A stretch of 37,509 nt of DNA from the NCBI GenBank assembly GCA_023265015.1, contig JAHFUO010000006.1:1-37509 (forward strand), given 5' to 3'. Below, one piece after another: positions 1,798 through 30,420 of the stretch. The number at the start of each line of letters is the position of its first letter. Position 1 is the first letter of the stretch. The stretch comes from Acidobacteriota bacterium (lineage in GTDB: Bacteria; Acidobacteriota; Vicinamibacteria; Vicinamibacterales; UBA2999). Both the position numbers and the translations under genes were made by a program. The notes under the pieces are model-generated. The model did no database searches and was not told the origin of the DNA. It was given only the letters and a program-made list of their open reading frames with translations.

Positions 1798-2541
1798 ATG
1801 CGACGTCTTCCGTTTCTCGTCTTCGCAGCCCTGAGCCTGGCCCTCGCCTCGTCTGCCGCAGCGCAGACCGGCCGCATCACCGGCACGATCAAGGATGCCG
1901 ACGGCAAGGCGATCAAGGGCGCGATCGTGCGCGCCGCCAACGACGCTTCGGCCGCGAAGGTCACGTCGACGACCGACGACAAGGGCCGCTTCGCGATGAT
2001 CGGCCTGCGCAGCGGCGAGTGGAAGATCACGATCGAGGCGCCGAATTTTCTGACGCTTCAGGGGCAGGCGGCAGTCAGCGCCGGCGTCGCCCCGGTGCTG
2101 GCCCTCGTCATGCTGCGCGATCTCGGACCGATCCCAGGTGCGCTCTCCAAGACGATCGGCGATGAAATCACCGCTGCGGAAACGCTGAGCAAGGCGGGGC
2201 GCTACGACGAAGCGATCGCCGCGTACCAGGCCATCCAGTCGAAGAACTCGAAGCTGACGAGCGTGAGCCTGCTGCTGGCCGCTCTGTATCGCGAGAAGGC
2301 GCAGCAGGAGAAGGACTCCACCGCTCGACAGGCGCTGCTCGGCCGCGCCATCACCGCCTACAGCGACGTGCTGAAGAGCGACGAGACGAACACGCGCGCG
2401 CGCATCGAGCTCGGCATGACGCAGATGGCGGCCGGCAACGCTGACGCCGCCGCCAAGACGTTCCAGGATGTGATTACCGCGAACCCGAAGGGCTCTGCGG
2501 CCGTCGAAGCGGCCGCGCATCTTCAAGAAATCAGAAAATGA
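1798..2541 (+). CDS. exported carboxypeptidase-regulatory-like / TPR protein
   Basis: A 247-residue protein with a clear Sec signal peptide (MRRLPFLVFAALSLALASSAAAQ). Residues about 24-105 read as a carboxypeptidase regulatory-like beta-sandwich (GRITGTIKDADGKAIKGAIVRA). Residues about 120-245 are helical and TPR-like (AGRYDEAIAAYQAI, ITAYSDVLKSDETNTRARIELG). The exact function is unknown; TPR parts usually hold partner proteins in the periplasm. AGGAG lies just before the ATG. The stop overlaps the next start (ATGA at 2538), so it is translationally coupled to the sulfatase-TPR gene and the two products probably work together. Confidence 0.8.
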   Translation: MRRLPFLVFAALSLALASSAAAQTGRITGTIKDADGKAIKGAIVRAANDASAAKVTSTTDDKGRFAMIGLRSGEWKITIEAPNFLTLQGQAAVSAGVAPVLALVMLRDLGPIPGALSKTIGDEITAAETLSKAGRYDEAIAAYQAIQSKNSKLTSVSLLLAALYREKAQQEKDSTARQALLGRAITAYSDVLKSDETNTRARIELGMTQMAAGNADAAAKTFQDVITANPKGSAAVEAAAHLQEIRK

Positions 2542-4745
2542 ACCGCACGTCTGTCGCGCCGAGACGCTGGCAGGCTACTTTCATCATCACGCTGTTCATG
2601 CTTGCCGTGGCCGGCGCGGCATTCACCGGCTGGCGGTTCGCGCGCGAGTCGACCCCGCACCAGGGTCCCATCGTTCTGATCTCCGTTGACGGCCTGCGTG
2701 CCGATCGCCTGACGGCGTACGGCGCGCGTCCCGGCGCCACGCCCGCCATTGACGCGCTCGCGGCCGAGAGCATCGTGTTCGATCGCGCCTATGCGCACTC
2801 GCCTCAGACGCTGCCGGCGCACGCCGCGCTCCTCTCCGGTCAGCTTCCCGTCGACAACGGCGTGAGAGACGACGCGGGATATGCGCTGAAGGGCGGCGCG
2901 CGGACCATCGCTGCGCTGCTGAGGAATCGCGGCTTCAACACGGGCGCGGCTGTCTCCTCGTTCCTGCTGCGACGCACGACCGGCGTCGCGCAGGGCTTTT
3001 CGTTCTACGACGCCGACATCCCCGACGAGCCGCTCGAAGATGGCGGCCTGCCCGAGCGCGCCGGCGGCGCCACGTTCGAGGCGGCGGACCGTTGGCTGAA
3101 GACGCAGAGCGGGCAGCGGTACTTCTTGTTTCTCGAGATCGATACCCGCTCCGCCGACGCCGTGGTTGGCCGGCTGGTCGAAGAGCTGAAGAAGACCAGG
3201 CGCTACGGGGACGCCACGATCTTCCTGACGGGGGATCACGGAGATGCGGGCAACGGCGCCTCGCTCGACGACGGCACGCTGCGGGTGCCGCTCGTCGTGA
3301 AACAACCGGGAGGGGCCGGTGCCGGACGCCGCGTCGTGCAGCCTGTGCAGCACATCGACCTGCTGCCGACGATGCTCGACCTGGTGCGTGCGCCGACGGT
3401 CTCGGGCCTGCGTGGGCGATCGCTGCGCGCGATTCTCGACAAGACCAGCGGCTTCGTCCCCGACCAGCCGATCTACGCCGAATCGCTGGCCGCGCAATTC
3501 AGGTTCGGTGGCCGTCCCGTGTTTGCGTTGTCCGGTGGCGCGTATCGAATCGTCCGCGGCCCGGATGACCAGCTTCAGCGCCTCGTGCCCGAGGCTGCGG
3601 CCATCGATCCCGCGCGGCTGGCTCAGTTGAACGCATCCCTCGATCGCCTGCTCCAGGGACGGGCGATAGAGCCGCCGGCGCGTCCGGCGCAGGCGGACGA
3701 GGATCGGCTCGCGGCATTCGGCTACCTGCAGGGCCTTCGCACTTTCGCACCTCTCGCACCTCTCGCAGCTCTCGCACCCCTCGCACCGCTCGCACCGCTC
3801 GCACCCCTCGCACCCCTCGCACGCCTCGCACCCCTCGCACCGACAATGGATGCGGCGGATCAGGCATCCCTGGTCGCCGCTCATCGCGTCGCTGTCCTGC
3901 TCGTCGCGCAGAAGCGATTCTCCGCGGCGCTCGATGGCCTGCGCGCGATTGCGGCGGAGCACCCGGATCTCGCTGCCGTGCAGTATCAAATCGGTTCGCT
4001 GCTCGCGCGGATCGGCCGATTCGACGAGGCCACGAAGACACTGCAGGCGGTGGCGGCGCTGAGGCCGGACGATCCTGAAGTGCCGATGGCGCTCGCCTCC
4101 ACGATGCTGCGCGCCCGCCGCCTGGACGATGCCTCGATGCAGGCGGATCGCGCCGTGGAGCTCGCGGAGGCCGGCGGCGACACGCGGATGAAGGCGGGCG
4201 CGCATGAAATCGCGGCGCGCGTAGCACTCGCGCGCGACGACGCCGGTGGCGCAAACGCTCACGCGCTCGAGGCGCAGAAGGCCGACCCCTCGCTGCCGCT
4301 GCCCCAGTTCGTTCATGGGCGGCTCCTCTACGAGGATGCGCGGTACGAGCAGGCGCTCGCGGCGTTCAAGGACGCTGAGCGCGCGCTCAAGCCGGAGGGC
4401 CGCTCGATCGCGGAGCTGCACCTGTATCTTGGAAATGTCTTCGCGAGGCTGGACAGGTACATGGAGGCCGAAGCCGAATTCCGGGAGGAGCTGCGCGAGT
4501 TCCCGCAGAACATCGGCACCTACGCGAGCCTGGCGATGCTCTATCGCGCGTCGAACCGAGCCCAGGCCGTGGAGCACGTGATCGGCGATCTCGTCGAAAC
4601 CACGCCGACGCCGGAGGGGTACTCGATGGCCGCGCGGCTCTTGACGATCGTCGGCGAGCGCGCCCGCGCGGAGGCCCTCAGGTCCGACGCGCGGCGAAAG
4701 TTCCGCGGCGATCCCTCGCTCGCGCTGCTCGGACGATCCCGGTAG
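2538..4745 (+). CDS. sulfatase/alkaline-phosphatase-fold membrane protein with TPR domain
   Basis: A 735-residue protein. One N-terminal membrane helix (about 13-32) precedes an alkaline-phosphatase-superfamily domain to about residue 350. Metal-ligand motifs are visible: VDGLRAD (D51) and LTGDHGD (D233, H234). Where a true sulfatase has C/S-x-P-x-R, this protein reads QTLPAHA, with Thr91 at the nucleophile position. It is therefore unlikely to be a formylglycine sulfatase and may be a phosphodiesterase, a phospho-transferase or a non-catalytic member. The C-terminal half (about 440-735) is a run of TPRs (FDEATKTLQAVAALRPDDPE). The two halves are joined by a (Leu-Ala-Pro)n linker at about 400-435 encoded by a 9-bp DNA repeat. 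It is coupled by ATGA overlap to the preceding TPR gene. Confidence 0.8.
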   Translation: MNRTSVAPRRWQATFIITLFMLAVAGAAFTGWRFARESTPHQGPIVLISVDGLRADRLTAYGARPGATPAIDALAAESIVFDRAYAHSPQTLPAHAALLSGQLPVDNGVRDDAGYALKGGARTIAALLRNRGFNTGAAVSSFLLRRTTGVAQGFSFYDADIPDEPLEDGGLPERAGGATFEAADRWLKTQSGQRYFLFLEIDTRSADAVVGRLVEELKKTRRYGDATIFLTGDHGDAGNGASLDDGTLRVPLVVKQPGGAGAGRRVVQPVQHIDLLPTMLDLVRAPTVSGLRGRSLRAILDKTSGFVPDQPIYAESLAAQFRFGGRPVFALSGGAYRIVRGPDDQLQRLVPEAAAIDPARLAQLNASLDRLLQGRAIEPPARPAQADEDRLAAFGYLQGLRTFAPLAPLAALAPLAPLAPLAPLAPLARLAPLAPTMDAADQASLVAAHRVAVLLVAQKRFSAALDGLRAIAAEHPDLAAVQYQIGSLLARIGRFDEATKTLQAVAALRPDDPEVPMALASTMLRARRLDDASMQADRAVELAEAGGDTRMKAGAHEIAARVALARDDAGGANAHALEAQKADPSLPLPQFVHGRLLYEDARYEQALAAFKDAERALKPEGRSIAELHLYLGNVFARLDRYMEAEAEFREELREFPQNIGTYASLAMLYRASNRAQAVEHVIGDLVETTPTPEGYSMAARLLTIVGERARAEALRSDARRKFRGDPSLALLGRSR
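3735..3842 (+). repeat. in-frame 9-bp CTCGCACCC array encoding (LAP)n
   Basis: About eleven degenerate copies of CTCGCACCC/CTCGCACCG lie inside the sulfatase-TPR gene. The 9-bp period keeps the frame and yields APLAPLAALAPLAP and so on. The reverse complement, GGGTGCGAG, is the unit of the intergenic array at 20491-20566. Confidence 0.9.
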
Positions 4746-7288: not shown

Positions 7289-7744
7289 TCAACATCGGGT
7301 GCGGAACTGGCGCACGGCCTCGACCATCACTGCAGCCACCAGCGACGTTGCGCCGGCCAGCATCCACATCGGCTGCGCGCGCAACCGGACCATCATCACA
7401 TACGCGATCCCAGCGAGTATAGCGTATCTCGTGATGTATTTCACAAGACGCCACCACCTCGAAGCACGCCGATGGTCGGGCTGATCTGCGGCAGCAGCCG
7501 GCAACTGCATCGCGGCGTCGACCGCGGCGCGCAGCGCGCCGTAGCTCATCGCGATGAGGGCGCCGCCGCCAACGACGGCCGCCGCCGATCGCCATCCGTT
7601 GTCGGTCACCGCGCCGACGAGGGCGATCGCCGCGCACGCGATGACGCCGGTCCGCTCGATGCGTCGCAGCTGCGGATCGCGTTCAATCCCGAGCCCTGAG
7701 CCCTGGGCCTTGAGCCCTGAGCCCTGAGCCCTGAGCCTTCTCAT
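7289..7744 (-). CDS. atpI: ATP synthase subunit I (AtpI-like)
   Basis: Small membrane protein of the ATP-synt_I family, thought to help c-ring assembly. About four hydrophobic helices are visible: VIACAAIALVGAV, AAAVVGGGALIAMSYGAL, YAILAGIAYVMMV and MWMLAGATSLVAAVMVEAV. Its ATG at 7744 overlaps the atpZ stop (ATGA), which fixes this start. The first ~20 residues (MRRLRAQGSGLKAQGSGLG) are encoded by a 7-bp TGAGCCC repeat array and are probably not part of the functional fold. Length is 151 residues. The gene for subunit a, normally next, is missing; atpE starts 59 nt downstream. Confidence 0.75.
   Translation of the reverse strand: MRRLRAQGSGLKAQGSGLGIERDPQLRRIERTGVIACAAIALVGAVTDNGWRSAAAVVGGGALIAMSYGALRAAVDAAMQLPAAAADQPDHRRASRWWRLVKYITRYAILAGIAYVMMVRLRAQPMWMLAGATSLVAAVMVEAVRQFRTRC
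7690..7740. repeat. 7-bp TGAGCCC array forming the atpI 5' end
   Basis: About seven units of TGAGCCC or close variants (GAGCCCTGAGCCCTGGGCCT...). Read on the minus strand it encodes RAQGSGLKAQGSGLG at the start of AtpI. The array begins immediately after the atpI start codon, which itself overlaps the atpZ stop. Confidence 0.85.
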
Positions 7745-18198: not shown

Positions 18199-19209
18199 AT
18201 GGCAACACACACCTCCACCGCCCGGCTCGCGCTGACGCGCCGCCCGCGCCGCCTGCGGCGCACCGAGGCGATCCGCAGCCTCGTGCGCGAGACGCGGCTC
18301 ACGCCCGACTGCTTCATCCTTCCGCTGTTCGTCTGCGAAGGGCGCGGCGTGCGGCGCGAGGTCAGCTCGATGCCTGGCGTGTTCCAGCTCTCGGTGGACG
18401 AGGCGGTGAAGGAAGCGGCAGCGGCAAAGGCGGACGGCGTGCCGGGCGTGCTGCTGTTCGGGCTTCCCGACAGCAAGGATGCGACGGGCTCGAAGGCGTC
18501 CGATCCCGATGCTCCCGTCCAGAGCGCGGTCCGCGCGATGAAGCGCGAGATCCGGGATCTCATCGTCATCACCGACGTATGCCTCTGCGAATACACGTCG
18601 CACGGGCACTGCGGCATTCTCGAGGGCGAGGAGATCCTCAACGACGTCACGGTCGCGCACGTCGCGGATGCCGCGCTGTCGCATGCCGTGGCGGGCGCGG
18701 ATTTCGTCGCCCCCTCGGACATGATGGACGGGCGCGTGGCGGCCATCCGGACGCTGCTCGACGAGCGCGGCCTCGATCGCACCGGCATCATGTCGTATGC
18801 GGCGAAGTACTGCTCGGCCTTCTACGGGCCGTTCCGCGATGCCGCCGATTCGGCGCCGCAGTTCGGCGACCGGCGCAGCCACCAGATGGATCCGGCCAAC
18901 GTCGAGGAGGCGCTGCGCGAGGTCGAGACCGACATCGAGGAAGGCGCCGACATCATCATGGTGAAGCCGGCGCTGCACTACCTCGACGTGATCTCGCGCG
19001 TGAAAAGGCAGTTCAACCAGCCGACCGCCGCGTACCACGTAAGCGGCGAGTACGCGATGCTCAAGCTCGCGGTCGCGAAGGGCTGGATCGACGAACGGCG
19101 CGGCATGCTCGAGACGCTCACGGCGATCAAGCGCGCCGGCGCGGACATCATCATCACGTACTACGCGCGTGATGCTGCGCGCGCCCTTCATGAAAAACCC
19201 CGAGCGTAG
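18199..19209 (+). CDS. hemB: porphobilinogen synthase (delta-aminolevulinate dehydratase)
   Basis: Condenses two 5-aminolevulinates to porphobilinogen. A 336-residue TIM barrel. Landmarks are the N-terminal [16 protein letters not shown] and FILPLFV, and the zinc-binding cysteine loop [14 protein letters not shown] (C128, C130, C138), so it is the Zn-dependent type. The two active-site lysines are K203 ([12 protein letters not shown]) and K256 ([12 protein letters not shown], Schiff base). [12 protein letters not shown] follows. The ATG at 18199 is the only sensible start. It overlaps hemL at its 3' end. It is separated from hemD by the Uma2/PQQ island. Confidence 0.97.
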
Positions 19210-20485
19210 CAAGAAGCTTTTCGCGCGCGCCTCTCAGATCCTTCCCGGCGGCGTGGACAGTCCCGTGCGCGCGTTCAGGAGCGTCGGCGGAACGCCTCTG
19301 TTCATCAGCCGCGCCTCGGGCGCCACAATCGAGGACGTCGACGGCAACCGCTTCATCGATTACGTGATGTCATGGGGTCCGCTGGTCCACGGCCACGCCC
19401 CGCGCGGCCTGGTGAAGGCGATCGCCGCGGCAGCCAGGCGCGGAACGAGCTTCGGCGCCCCAAGCCCGCTCGAGCACCGGCTCGGCGGGCTCGTGCGCAC
19501 GCTGATGCCGTCGATGGAGCGCGTGCGCTTCGTCAGCTCCGGGACCGAGGCGGCGATGAGCGCGCTGCGCGTGGCCCGCGCGTTCACCGGGCGCGACCGC
19601 ATCATCAAGTTCGAAGGGTGCTACCACGGACACGCGGACGCGTTTCTCGTCAAGGCGGGCTCCGGCGCGACGACGCTGGGGATTCCGACGAGCCCCGGCG
19701 TGCCGGCGGCGGTGGCGGCCGACACGCTGCTGGCCCGCTACAACGATCTCGCCTCCGTCTCCGCCCTCTGCGCGGCGCAGGCGGGCAGGATCGCGGCCGT
19801 TATCGTTGAGCCGATCGCCGGCAACATGGGGCTCGTCCCGCCGTCGGACGGCTTCCTGTCCGGCCTGCGCGATCTCTGCTCACGCCACGCCGTCGTGCTG
19901 ATCTTCGACGAGGTGATCTCGGGGTTTCGCGCATCGGCGGGGGGCGCCCAATCGATCTTCGGGATTCGGCCGGATCTCACGTGCCTGGGCAAGATCATCG
20001 GCGGCGGCCTGCCGGTGGGCGCGTACGGCGGCCGCGCCGACATCATGGATCTCGTCGCGCCGGCCGGCGCCGTCTACCAGGCAGGCACGCTGTCGGGCAA
20101 TCCCATCGCGATGACCGCCGGCCTCTGGGCTCTCGAGCACTTGTCACCCAGGCTCTACAAGAATCTGGCGCACCGCGGATCGATGCTCGCCGAGGGCCTG
20201 GCCGACGCGGCTCGGGCGGCGAAGGTGTCGCTGCAGGTCAACGCGTTCGGCTCGCTGGTGACGCCGTTCTTCAGCTCGTCGCCTGTTCGCGATTACGCCT
20301 CCGCGCTCAACGCCAATACCTCCGCCTACGCGACGTTCTTCCGCGGCATGCTGGCGCGCGGTGTCTATCCACCGCCATCGCAGTTCGAGGCGTGGTTCCT
20401 GTCTGCGGCGCACACCGATCGTCATGTGAAGAAGACGATCGCCGCGGCGAGACTTGCGATGAAGGATGTCGCGAGGACGATCTGA
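19190..20485 (+). CDS. hemL: glutamate-1-semialdehyde 2,1-aminomutase
   Basis: PLP enzyme turning glutamate-1-semialdehyde into 5-aminolevulinate, the step after HemA. Landmarks are [12 protein letters not shown], the [18 protein letters not shown]-phosphate region, [21 protein letters not shown] and the PLP lysine K268 in [18 protein letters not shown]. The ATG at 19190 ([11 protein letters not shown]) matches the family N-terminus. The track GTG at 19169 adds seven residues and is less likely. It overlaps the end of hemB by about 20 nt. It is directly followed by a GGGTGCGAG repeat array. Confidence 0.96.
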
Positions 20486-20490
20486 CGGAA

Positions 20491-20566
20491 AGGTGCGAGG
20501 GTGCGAGTCGTGCGAGGGTGCGTCCGAGGGTGCGAGGGTGCGACAGTGGGTTCGAGGGTGCGAGGC
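20491..20566. repeat. 9-bp GGGTGCGAG array
   Basis: Degenerate units of GGTGCGAGG fill the space between the hemL stop and the DinB-like ATG at 20568. They are the reverse complement of the coding CTCGCACCC array at 3735-3842. The track ORF beginning at 20466 translates this array as its first 34 residues, which are not part of the protein family. Confidence 0.9.
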
Positions 20567-20567
20567 A

Positions 20568-21131
20568 ATGACAGATTTCGTCGGTTCCATTGCGGCGGAG
20601 TTTCATCGTTATAAGGCGCTTGGCGACTCTGCCCTGGCGCAGCTCGCGGACGACCAGCTCTCGACGACGGGACCGAACGGAGGGAATTCCGCGGCCGTGC
20701 TCGTCTGGCATATCGGCGGCAACCTGTCGTCGCGCTTCAGCGATTTCCTGACGAGCGACGGGGAGAAGCCGTGGCGTCATCGCGACGAGGAGTTCGTTCA
20801 ACGCACGGTGACGCGCGAGGAGCTGTTCGAGAAATGGAACGGCGGCTGGAGCGTGCTGTTCAGCGCCCTGGACGCGCTGGCCGACGACGACCTCGGAAAG
20901 ACGGTGAAGATTCGCGGCCAGTCATTCGAGGTGCACGACGGCCTGCATCGAGCGCTCGGCCACATCTGCTATCACGTCGGCCAGATCGTCTACCTGGCGA
21001 AATCGCTGCGGGGCGACTCGTGGAATTGTTTGAGCATTCCGGTCGGAGCCTCGGAGGCCTACAACCGGAACCCGACGCTTCAGGATCCAGCCGCGCATGC
21101 AGCGGCGGTCACACGACAATCCGGACGGTGA
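20568..21131 (+). CDS. DinB-superfamily (DUF1572-like) protein
   Basis: A 187-residue four-helix DinB/YfiT-like protein. Three histidines at family positions may bind a metal: VWHIGGNLSSRF and HRALGHICYHVGQIVYLAK. The four-helix order and the conserved TTGPNGGNSAAVLVWHI match DUF1572-type proteins. Function is unknown; relatives include thiol transferases and stress-induced proteins. The ATG at 20568 is chosen because the longer track ORF only translates repeat DNA. The gene is bracketed by GGTGCGA arrays upstream (20491-20566) and, shorter, downstream (21134-21160). Confidence 0.78.
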   Translation: MTDFVGSIAAEFHRYKALGDSALAQLADDQLSTTGPNGGNSAAVLVWHIGGNLSSRFSDFLTSDGEKPWRHRDEEFVQRTVTREELFEKWNGGWSVLFSALDALADDDLGKTVKIRGQSFEVHDGLHRALGHICYHVGQIVYLAKSLRGDSWNCLSIPVGASEAYNRNPTLQDPAAHAAAVTRQSGR

Positions 21132-23643: not shown

Positions 23644-23652
23644 ATCCCTCAC

Positions 23653-23739
23653 GGCGCCCCGTAAAGGGGCGCCCTACGTGCCGTGGCGCCCCGCAAGGGG
23701 CGCCCTACGTGCGGCCGCGGCACCCCGTGAAGGGGCGCC
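23653..23739. repeat. three tandem GGCGCCCC palindromes
   Basis: GGCGCCCC-gtaaa-GGGGCGCC (23653-23673), GGCGCCCC-gcaa-GGGGCGCC (23685-23704) and GGCACCCC-gtgaa-GGGGCGCC (23719-23739) are spaced by CTACGTGCCGT-like linkers. All can form tight hairpins. The last overlaps the cdsA stop codon. They lie inside an operon, between cdsA and dxr, so they could stabilise or attenuate the message. Confidence 0.9.
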
Positions 23740-24522
23740 CTACAGTCCCCCACTGCCGTGAAGATAGACGTAGAAGGGCGGCACGGCGAAGAGCAGCGCG
23801 TCGATGCGATCGAGGACGCCGCCGTGACCGGGAATCAGCGAGGAGCTGTCCTTCAACCCCGCGGCGCGCTTCAGGCGCGACTCGAACAGGTCACCGCCGA
23901 TGCCGAGCACCACGATCGCCAGGCCAAGCCCCGCGAGTGACGTGATCGATCGCCCGGGCAGTACGCGCTGGCCTGCAAGCGCCATGAACAGCGTGCCGAC
24001 GATCACGCCGCCGACCGCGCCTTCGATCGTCTTCTTCGGGCTGATCGCGGGCGCAAGCGGATGGCGTCCGAACATCCGCCCCGAGTAGTACTGCGCCGAG
24101 TCGCTGACAACGACGGTGGCCATCAGCAGCAGCGTGGCCGTGCGGCCGCCGAGCATCTGGACGCTCACGAGCATGCCGAGCGGCATGCCGAGATACCAGG
24201 GCGCGAAGAAGCGCGCGGCGGCGTCGCCGATCGGCCGGGCGCGGAGCAGGACCTCCACGCCGACCCAGACCACACCGAACAGGACGAGCACGACGAGATG
24301 CGCCGGCACCGGCTCGGCCATCCACCAGCACGTCAGCGCGACGATCAGGAGCGCCGGCACTTCGCCGCGCGTGGAGCGGCCGCCGGAGACGACATGGACG
24401 TATTCGTGCGCGGCCAGCGCGGCGACCGCACACGCAAGCAGGCGGAGGCCGATGAGAGGGAGAAAGAGAATCGCGGCGAGGGCTGCGGCAGCGAGAAACA
24501 CCCCGCTGATGACGCGCGTCAT
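23740..24522 (-). CDS. cdsA: phosphatidate cytidylyltransferase
   Basis: Makes CDP-diacylglycerol from phosphatidate and CTP. The ATG at 24522 overlaps the uppS stop (ATGA), giving 260 residues with about seven or eight membrane helices. Family motifs are VVVSDSAQYYSGRMFGRHPLAPAISPKKTIEGAVGG and the C-terminal signature SRLKRAAGLKDSSSLIPGHGGVLDRIDALLFA (matches S-x-x-K-R-x4-K-D-x6-P-x-H-G-G). The longer track ORF start at 24630 runs into uppS and is rejected. Confidence 0.96.
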   Translation of the reverse strand: MTRVISGVFLAAAALAAILFLPLIGLRLLACAVAALAAHEYVHVVSGGRSTRGEVPALLIVALTCWWMAEPVPAHLVVLVLFGVVWVGVEVLLRARPIGDAAARFFAPWYLGMPLGMLVSVQMLGGRTATLLLMATVVVSDSAQYYSGRMFGRHPLAPAISPKKTIEGAVGGVIVGTLFMALAGQRVLPGRSITSLAGLGLAIVVLGIGGDLFESRLKRAAGLKDSSSLIPGHGGVLDRIDALLFAVPPFYVYLHGSGGL

Positions 24523-29396: not shown

Positions 29397-30291
29397 TGAG
29401 CTGACGACCCTTGGGGCGGCAGACACCACGGAGCGGACACTGCCGATCGCCCTGGGCGCGGCGGTAGCCGCACGCGTTCATCATCCCGACGTGGCAGAGG
29501 GAGAAGTCGTATCGGACCGGATCGGCTGCATCGATGGTGCGCAGCGAGGCGGTGATCTCCGCCGCCATCTTCCAGCCGGGCGTCGCGTAGCGCGTGAGGC
29601 GAAGGCAACGACCGAGCCGGATCACGTGCGTGTCGAGCGGAACGATGAGCTGCGAAGGGGACACCCGTGTCCACACGCCGAGATCGATCGCGTCGCGGCG
29701 GACCATCCATCTCAGAAACAGGTTGAGCCGCTTGCAGGCGCTGCCCGCCGACGGCCGCGGAAAGAAATAGCAGACGCCGGGCCGTTTCGGCACGCGGCCG
29801 TACGCGGGGCGGAGATCGGTCTGCAGCGCGCGGGTCGAAAACGCGTCGAGCGCAGGGCCGATGTCGGGCGCCCGCGGATCGTCCCCCACGACGAAGAAAC
29901 CCTCAATCGACCCAGACTCGCGCAGCATGCGCTGCAGGATCAGCAGTAACGCCACCAGATCGCGCCCGCGGATCCAGCGATGCACGAGCGGATCGAGACG
30001 CTCGCGATGCCGCGCGGGATCAAACGCGCGGACAAACGCTGCGGGCCTCGGCCCCATGACGGCGAGCAGCGATTCGATCGAGTGCAGCACGCTCGCGACG
30101 CGGCCGAACGCCAGGGCGGAGGCGCAGAAGCCGACCACCTCCCGGTCCTCCCGCGCCTCGTAGCGCCGGACGATGTGGATCGGGTCGGTGGCGGAATTGA
30201 CGTGATCGAAGGTGCGGTACAGGTCATCGAGACGAGGACCGAAGTCGGTTCGTGGGTGCACGGGTGCACGGGTGCACAAGGTTCGGTTCAT
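29368..30291 (-). CDS. TIGR02757-family (DUF2400) conserved protein
   Basis: A protein of the TIGR02757 family, function unknown. Landmarks are VRRYEAREDREVVGFCASALAFGRVASVLHSIESLL, KRLNLFLRWMVRRDAIDLGVWTRVSPSQLIVPLDTHVIRLGRCLRLT and a C-terminal Cys cluster (NACGYRRAQGDRQCPLRGVC) reminiscent of a small Fe-S or zinc loop. The DTHVIRLGR segment recalls helix-hairpin-helix glycosylases. Both ends are repeat-derived: the first ~16 residues (RTLCTRAPVHPR) come from GGGTGCACG repeats and the last (PRRSRKSR) from CACGAAG repeats. The true start is therefore uncertain; the ATG at 30291 is provisional. Confidence 0.78.
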   Translation of the reverse strand: MNRTLCTRAPVHPRTDFGPRLDDLYRTFDHVNSATDPIHIVRRYEAREDREVVGFCASALAFGRVASVLHSIESLLAVMGPRPAAFVRAFDPARHRERLDPLVHRWIRGRDLVALLLILQRMLRESGSIEGFFVVGDDPRAPDIGPALDAFSTRALQTDLRPAYGRVPKRPGVCYFFPRPSAGSACKRLNLFLRWMVRRDAIDLGVWTRVSPSQLIVPLDTHVIRLGRCLRLTRYATPGWKMAAEITASLRTIDAADPVRYDFSLCHVGMMNACGYRRAQGDRQCPLRGVCRPKGRQLKPRRSRKSR

Positions 30292-30420
30292 GGGTGCGCC
30301 GGTTCGGGTTCGGGATGGGTTCGGGATGGGTTCGGGGTTCGTTCCGGGGTTGAATCCGGGGTTGAATTCAGGGTAGGGCTTCGAACCTGTGCACCCGTGA
30401 ACCCGCGCACCCGCGAACCC
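30247..30420. repeat. GGGTGCACG / GGGTTCGGGAT arrays forming a long imperfect hairpin
   Basis: The left arm GGTTCGTGGGTGCACGGGTGCACGGGTGCACAAGGTTCG (30247-30285) pairs with CGAACCTGTGCACCCGTGAACCCGCGCACCCGCGAACCC (30382-30420) with few mismatches. Between them lie repeated GGGTTCGGGAT and CCGGGGTTGAAT units. It fills the space between the CMD-family gene and the TIGR02757 gene, both on the minus strand, and covers the latter's first codons. Confidence 0.8.

Follow-up and report, generated by a model that had tools for sequence, protein, structure and literature searches.

The sulfatase-like/TPR gene and its hinge

The window, by which we mean the whole 37,509-nucleotide stretch of Acidobacteriota DNA that was analysed, holds one repeat array inside a gene and another between two genes. 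The features discussed here are the following.

2538 to 4745, plus strand: gene for a 735-residue sulfatase-like (PF00884) and TPR protein, which carries the repeat-encoded hinge and has orthologues with an identical two-domain layout
3744 to 3842, plus strand: coding array of 11 units of 9 bp at the sulfatase-like/TPR junction, consensus CTCGCACCN, read CTC-GCA-CCN, or (Leu-Ala-Pro)n
19169 to 20485, plus strand: class-III aminotransferase gene, the upstream flank, with its stop codon 6 bp before the intergenic array
20492 to 20565, minus strand: intergenic array of mainly 8-bp period, GGTGCGAG on the plus strand, 3' end taken from TRF; a hairpin-type element, perhaps one arm
20517 to 20535, minus strand: hallmark motif TCGCACCCTCGGACGCACC within the intergenic array
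20568 to 21131, plus strand: gene for a DUF1572/DinB-like protein, the downstream flank, with a probable start ATG at 20568 and a reading frame that runs on without a stop across the array as far upstream as 20466

The original prediction held that a (Leu-Ala-Pro)n linker between the sulfatase-like and TPR halves of this protein is built from 9-bp units, and this was borne out: the 11 units at 3744–3842 are in frame and are flanked by a Pfam Sulfatase match at residues 45–198 and by Pfam TPR matches from residue 455 onward. TRF reported 10.8 copies with a 92% match over the array, and (Leu-Ala-Pro)n is uninterrupted except for two units with a replacement, Pro to Ala and Pro to Arg. The window contains seven copies of the sequence CTCGCACCC, where 0.63 would be expected, a count that none of 100 shuffles reached; the sequence is also present, on the opposite strand, in the 20485–20568 gap. 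Codon choice follows the unit closely. Eleven of the 12 alanine codons in the array are GCA, compared with 6 of 120 in the remainder of the gene (Fisher p = 4e-11) and with a GCA share of 6.2% of alanine codons in genome-window usage, and all ten leucine codons of the array are CTC. Such a pattern marks a DNA repeat and does not come from codon selection.

It could be argued that the (Leu-Ala-Pro)n peptide was selected as a rigid or extended spacer, the DNA repeat being a by-product of protein selection. A proline at each third position fits an extended linker, and the three residues recur unbroken bar the one Ala and one Arg substitution. However, such selection leaves the near-invariant CTC and GCA codons unexplained; moreover, the complementary strand of the unit encodes (Gly-Ala-Arg/Lys)n at the tail of a LigD-type protein, and 8-bp copies of the unit read Ser-His-Pro-Arg-Thr-Leu-Ala-Pro. 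We regard this explanation as very improbable.

We compared the hinge over common alignment columns. It spans 70 residues here and 60 in a congener, G002, against 42–43 residues in 15 family orthologues, in which the repeat is absent, 46 in three order-level relatives and 43 in a second congener, G001. The orthologues therefore do not share a uniform Leu-Ala-Pro linker, and their lengths point to an expansion that is recent and confined to the lineage of the window's genome. The length variation seen is between species, with one genome per species. The G002 protein is 72% identical and its hinge has an Ala/Pro-rich stretch with no exact cores and two within one mismatch (p = 0.09); judging from this hinge, an older Ala/Pro hinge may predate the array. 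A search of the contigs of the named genomes for the sulfatase–TPR protein found no relative.

Sulfatases carry a Cys/Ser-x-Pro-Ser-Arg motif. At the position of this motif the sulfatase-like domain encoded by 2538–4745 reads SPQTLPAHAALLSG, and because of this replacement the product may not be a true sulfatase.

A repeat family of intergenic DNA

The array at 20492–20565 shares the 7-mer core TCGCACC/GGTGCGA with the coding array. It had been proposed that exact reverse-complement 9-bp units fill this intergenic gap. The array is real and lies on the opposite strand within 20485–20568, but its period is mainly 8 bp, broken by uneven steps of 20, 28 and 29 bp, and the exact 9-mer GGGTGCGAG occurs only three times, at unit junctions. 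No opposed partner was seen next to it, and the array may be a single hairpin arm. An Rfam search of the window gave no match.

The window comes from a draft genome of 3.18 Mb in 175 contigs (G000); all genomes compared are draft MAGs, in which unit numbers are open to assembly miscounting. Many further arrays were found in this genome. A two-core pattern, CTCGCACC-N(0-2)-CTCGCACC (cores spaced 8–10 bp), gave 48 matches in G000 and none for its reversed control, and a three-core pattern gave 60, again with none for the control. Within the stretches around arrays, to which the census was confined, 31 arrays of at least three TCGCACC cores could be told apart, a few of them loose and maybe due to chance, and most of the 31 are intergenic. 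The family thus consists of short tandem units dispersed at many, mainly intergenic places. True 9-bp (CTCGCACCY)n arrays also occur in intergenic DNA of this genome. Two arrays (L045 and L040) hold the hallmark TCGGACGCACC at 8-bp spacing beside runs of 9-bp units, which links the 8-bp and 9-bp forms. By inspection, all six frames of the units are free of stop codons, and the arrays translate open. The automatic coding test applied around arrays was crude, and its 'N-side' calls, mostly reading frames open upstream of the true start, were not counted as in frame.

We also examined how the arrays are arranged relative to one another. All 21 pairs of opposed arrays within 300 bp, pooled from G000 and named MAG records, run (GGTGCGA)n-spacer-(TCGCACC)n, and none is reversed. 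Two opposed-array examples, when folded and compared with shuffled sequence, gave z scores of -10.6 (as DNA) and -10.0 (as RNA). Judging from the single orientation and the strong folds, the basic intergenic form is a hairpin of short tandem units; some arrays have no opposed partner. Elsewhere in the window, at 30254–30420, a second opposed-array element comprises units (GGGTGCAC)3 and GGGTTCGGGAT followed by CGAACCCG/CGCACCCG, with a fold z of -5.4 as DNA, and seems to belong to a related family of hairpins.

Only close relatives within the Acidobacteria were found to carry the hallmark TCGCACCNTCGGACGCACC. Across a collection of 84,980 species, from which the window's own genome was maybe omitted, a long hallmark pattern matched 38 stretches, all in three Acidobacteria MAGs (RIFCSPLOWO2_12_FULL_68_19, gp6 AA39 and NC_groundwater_289). 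Among 297 genomes of the phylum a shorter hallmark was present only in G000 and G013, the latter having a NuoL that matches that of RIFCSPLOWO2_12_FULL_68_19 at 100%, and the looser two-core pattern was present in 17 of 99 relatives. The hosts of the repeat form one family of soil and groundwater Acidobacteria.

In-frame copies in other proteins

The claim that one repeat family occurs both as non-coding DNA and as an in-frame linker is supported, and in-frame copies extend to further proteins. They occur in genes that are unrelated to one another, encoding the sulfatase–TPR protein, DnaX, a LigD-type protein, an M28 peptidase, a membrane/DUF3108 protein and NuoL. The peptides encoded include (LAP)n, (GAR/GAK)n and SHPRTLAP, from both strands and more than one frame. 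In the sequences compared, the in-frame copies always lie in variable linkers, loops or tails.

In DnaX, the linker that joins domain III to the C-terminal part contains eight exact cores in G000, six in G013 and four, on both strands, in G005. Codon-order shuffling gave no value as high in 2000 trials for any of these three (p < 0.0005 for G000 and G013), and p values of 0.002–0.003 for G015 and G017. No cores were found in the DnaX linkers of eleven others, and relatives have linkers rich in Ala and Pro that lack the repeat. The variable loop of NuoL holds 12 cores with the hallmark in G013, 11 on both strands in G000 and six in G015. The loop region ranges from 42 to 102 residues among relatives; the 102-residue region of G000 (L290) is made of a 21-bp repeat, (SSHQDSA)n, which encloses the 11 cores and is likely, though less securely, derived from the TCGCACC family.

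The C-terminal tail of the LigD-type protein (PF13298) is (GAR/GAK)n in G000 and G002, the TCGCACC-family unit being read on the opposite strand, and in G002 it bears the hallmark. The tail repeat was absent from the other relatives compared, bar one isolated core, and the G000 tail is also short of about 40 residues present in relatives. In the M28 peptidase, repeat-derived residues lie N-terminal of the domain in G000, G013 and G011. The G013 copy is in frame and bears the hallmark; the start codon and signal of the G000 protein are uncertain. Matches in this linker are weaker in G006, G015 and G001, G002 has (VAP)4 and several others have none.

These copies bear on the possibility that the Leu-Ala-Pro array is of independent origin, a product of local slippage within a hinge rich in Ala and Pro, with a likeness to the intergenic repeats that is due only to chance or to shared base composition. 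The G002 hinge is Ala/Pro-rich without exact units, and the DnaX linkers of relatives indicate that such peptides do without the repeat. The sulfatase array is also a pure 9-mer lacking the hallmark motif, and its tie to the intergenic family therefore depends on three things: the core, the codon bias and the existence of identical 9-bp intergenic arrays. Against an independent origin, the seven-base core is that of the genome's dominant intergenic repeat, identical CTCGCACCY arrays stand between genes of G000, the array's alanines use a codon that serves for 6% of alanines, and hallmark-bearing copies are in frame elsewhere (NuoL and M28 peptidase of G013, LigD-type protein of G002). We consider independent slippage unlikely.

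The membrane/DUF3108 protein raises a different concern. It is a single reading frame in relatives, and in G000 its two halves end in (LAP)n, in matching frame, on contigs C62 and C83 (L033 and L038), so that the assembly breaks within the array at the hinge of the protein. Upstream of its array, C83 carries sequence seemingly from elsewhere, and this junction appears to be either an assembly misjoin or a real rearrangement. Several contigs of the draft terminate inside arrays. By the same token, the array in the sulfatase–TPR gene might be an artefact in which two loci were misjoined at the repeat. Both halves of the sulfatase–TPR and DnaX genes are, however, colinear with single orthologous genes in many relatives. 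Neither gene is therefore a chimera, although the exact unit number could be wrong. We regard a misjoin here as very improbable.

Other reading frames resemble these cases to differing degrees. A LarC-like reading frame (L044, PF01969; 276-fold) was not counted, as its cores number only three and lie where the protein is presumably His-rich by nature. An ImuB-like reading frame in a named MAG (L233; PF00817, E = 5e-6) contains TCGCACC arrays and a (GTGEQ)n repeat and looks like a further in-frame case; near its end lies a peptide resembling translated CACAGAGG-type repeats. In the DnaX linkers of G017, G013 and G015 (L112, L113 and L119) there are CCCAACTCCCAAATCCC-like repeats, which are probably in-frame copies of a further family of intergenic repeats.

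Discussion

We think it probable that the sulfatase–TPR array is an in-frame copy of a tandem repeat that is specific to the lineage, forms hairpins and lacks stops, and that such copies survive where length varies freely. The usual home of the TCGCACC/GGTGCGA repeat would be intergenic DNA, often as opposed, hairpin-forming arrays. Since the units are stop-free in all six frames, a copy that arose in a gene or expanded into it should not truncate the product when its length is divisible by three. Copies would then be retained by purifying selection only at sites of free length, such as inter-domain hinges, loops and tails, where slippage could add or remove units of the 9-bp form and leave the frame intact. 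The sulfatase–TPR hinge would have been lengthened in this way by about 27 residues of Leu-Ala-Pro repeat. The array, its absence from most orthologues, the core and hallmark common to intergenic and genic copies, the in-frame copies in several genes and the hairpin arrangement are observed. A move from intergenic DNA into genes, a part played by slippage, the way the repeat spread and a function of the peptide as a flexible, near-neutral spacer only are inferred. Transposition, gene conversion and local slippage are all compatible with these data.

Intergenic repeats that also occur inside genes are already known. Rickettsia palindromic elements are palindromic, repeated and mostly intergenic, and occur in frame within unrelated genes as an extra peptide (PMC10969869). 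The present family resembles them in the palindromic layout of its opposed arrays and in its in-frame copies within unrelated genes. It differs in that the Rickettsia elements are of about 150 bp with a conserved peptide, whereas here tandem units of 8–9 bp encode several peptides, are translated from both strands and from different frames, and can lengthen or shorten by 9 bp at a time. Enterobacterial RU-1, RU-2 and RU-3 are small mobile sequences, intergenic units found in annotated genes with the reading frame preserved (PMC2759123); they are MITE-like units of 103–168 bp, not tandem arrays like the TCGCACC family.

Short tandem repeats offer a closer comparison. The TAACTGA direct repeats of Beggiatoaceae and cyanobacteria are short, tandem and intergenic, with some copies in reading frames, mainly at the protein periphery (PMC4679880). 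TAACTGA read forward has stops in all frames, unlike the TCGCACC family, and its cases within reading frames are mostly hypothetical proteins or protein ends, whereas here they include internal linkers of DnaX and NuoL. The GGGAATC and GGGGAYT heptamers of Xanthomonas and Nostoc are dispersed and mostly lie between genes, with 7–11% intragenic in Xanthomonas (PMC4692102). Those heptamers are studied as quadruplex-forming DNA, whereas the opposed arrays here form hairpins, and unit, period and host differ. STRR, TAACTGA and GGGAATC repeats have a 7-bp unit, in contrast to the TCGCACC core, which recurs at 8- or 9-bp steps. Coding minisatellites, or VNTRs, share the multiple-of-three period and change of copy number without frameshift, but are defined by length variation among strains; the present unit is also an intergenic family, and its variation was seen between species. 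A search of the literature on intergenic repeats of Acidobacteria found no match. What is new here is the repeat family, its hairpin of tandem units and its presence, checked against orthologues, in core-protein linkers of several genera.

These observations provide an orthologue-compared case of a non-coding repeat supplying protein sequence in several unrelated genes, among them those of the clamp loader of replication and of complex I of respiration. Spacer DNA of a junk-like kind would be turning into protein linkers in these genomes. The observations reveal protein sites that tolerate insertion and offer a testable route for linker evolution. They also serve as a warning that draft genomes break or misjoin at such arrays, splitting real genes.

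Additional repeats were found beyond this family. In G009 another 9-bp unit, GGGGCGAGT/CTCGCCCCA, makes up hairpin arrays, and one array (L306) prolongs an open reading frame in phase, giving the peptide ...EGASGADGASGASG...; a domain search did not name this gene. G002 has an intergenic, hairpin-like (GGTGCGATG)6 array (L309). Tentatively, and with rather more doubt than confidence, we suggest that hairpin-forming repeat families (TCGCACC, GGGGCGAGT in G009 and the CCCAACT-type in DnaX) might be a lasting source of inter-domain linkers in this bacterial family, re-entering the same permissive linkers across genera, so that the length and sequence of linkers in core proteins such as DnaX and NuoL would be set by non-coding turnover and not by protein-level selection.

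The window itself contains other short repeats. There are 7-bp tandem arrays at 7691–7737 (GAGCCCT, 6.7 copies) and 1729–1784 (GATCCCC-like, 8 copies), and a palindromic 31-bp unit (CGGCGCCCCGTAAAGGGGCGCCC...) is present in 2.8 copies at 23652–23743.
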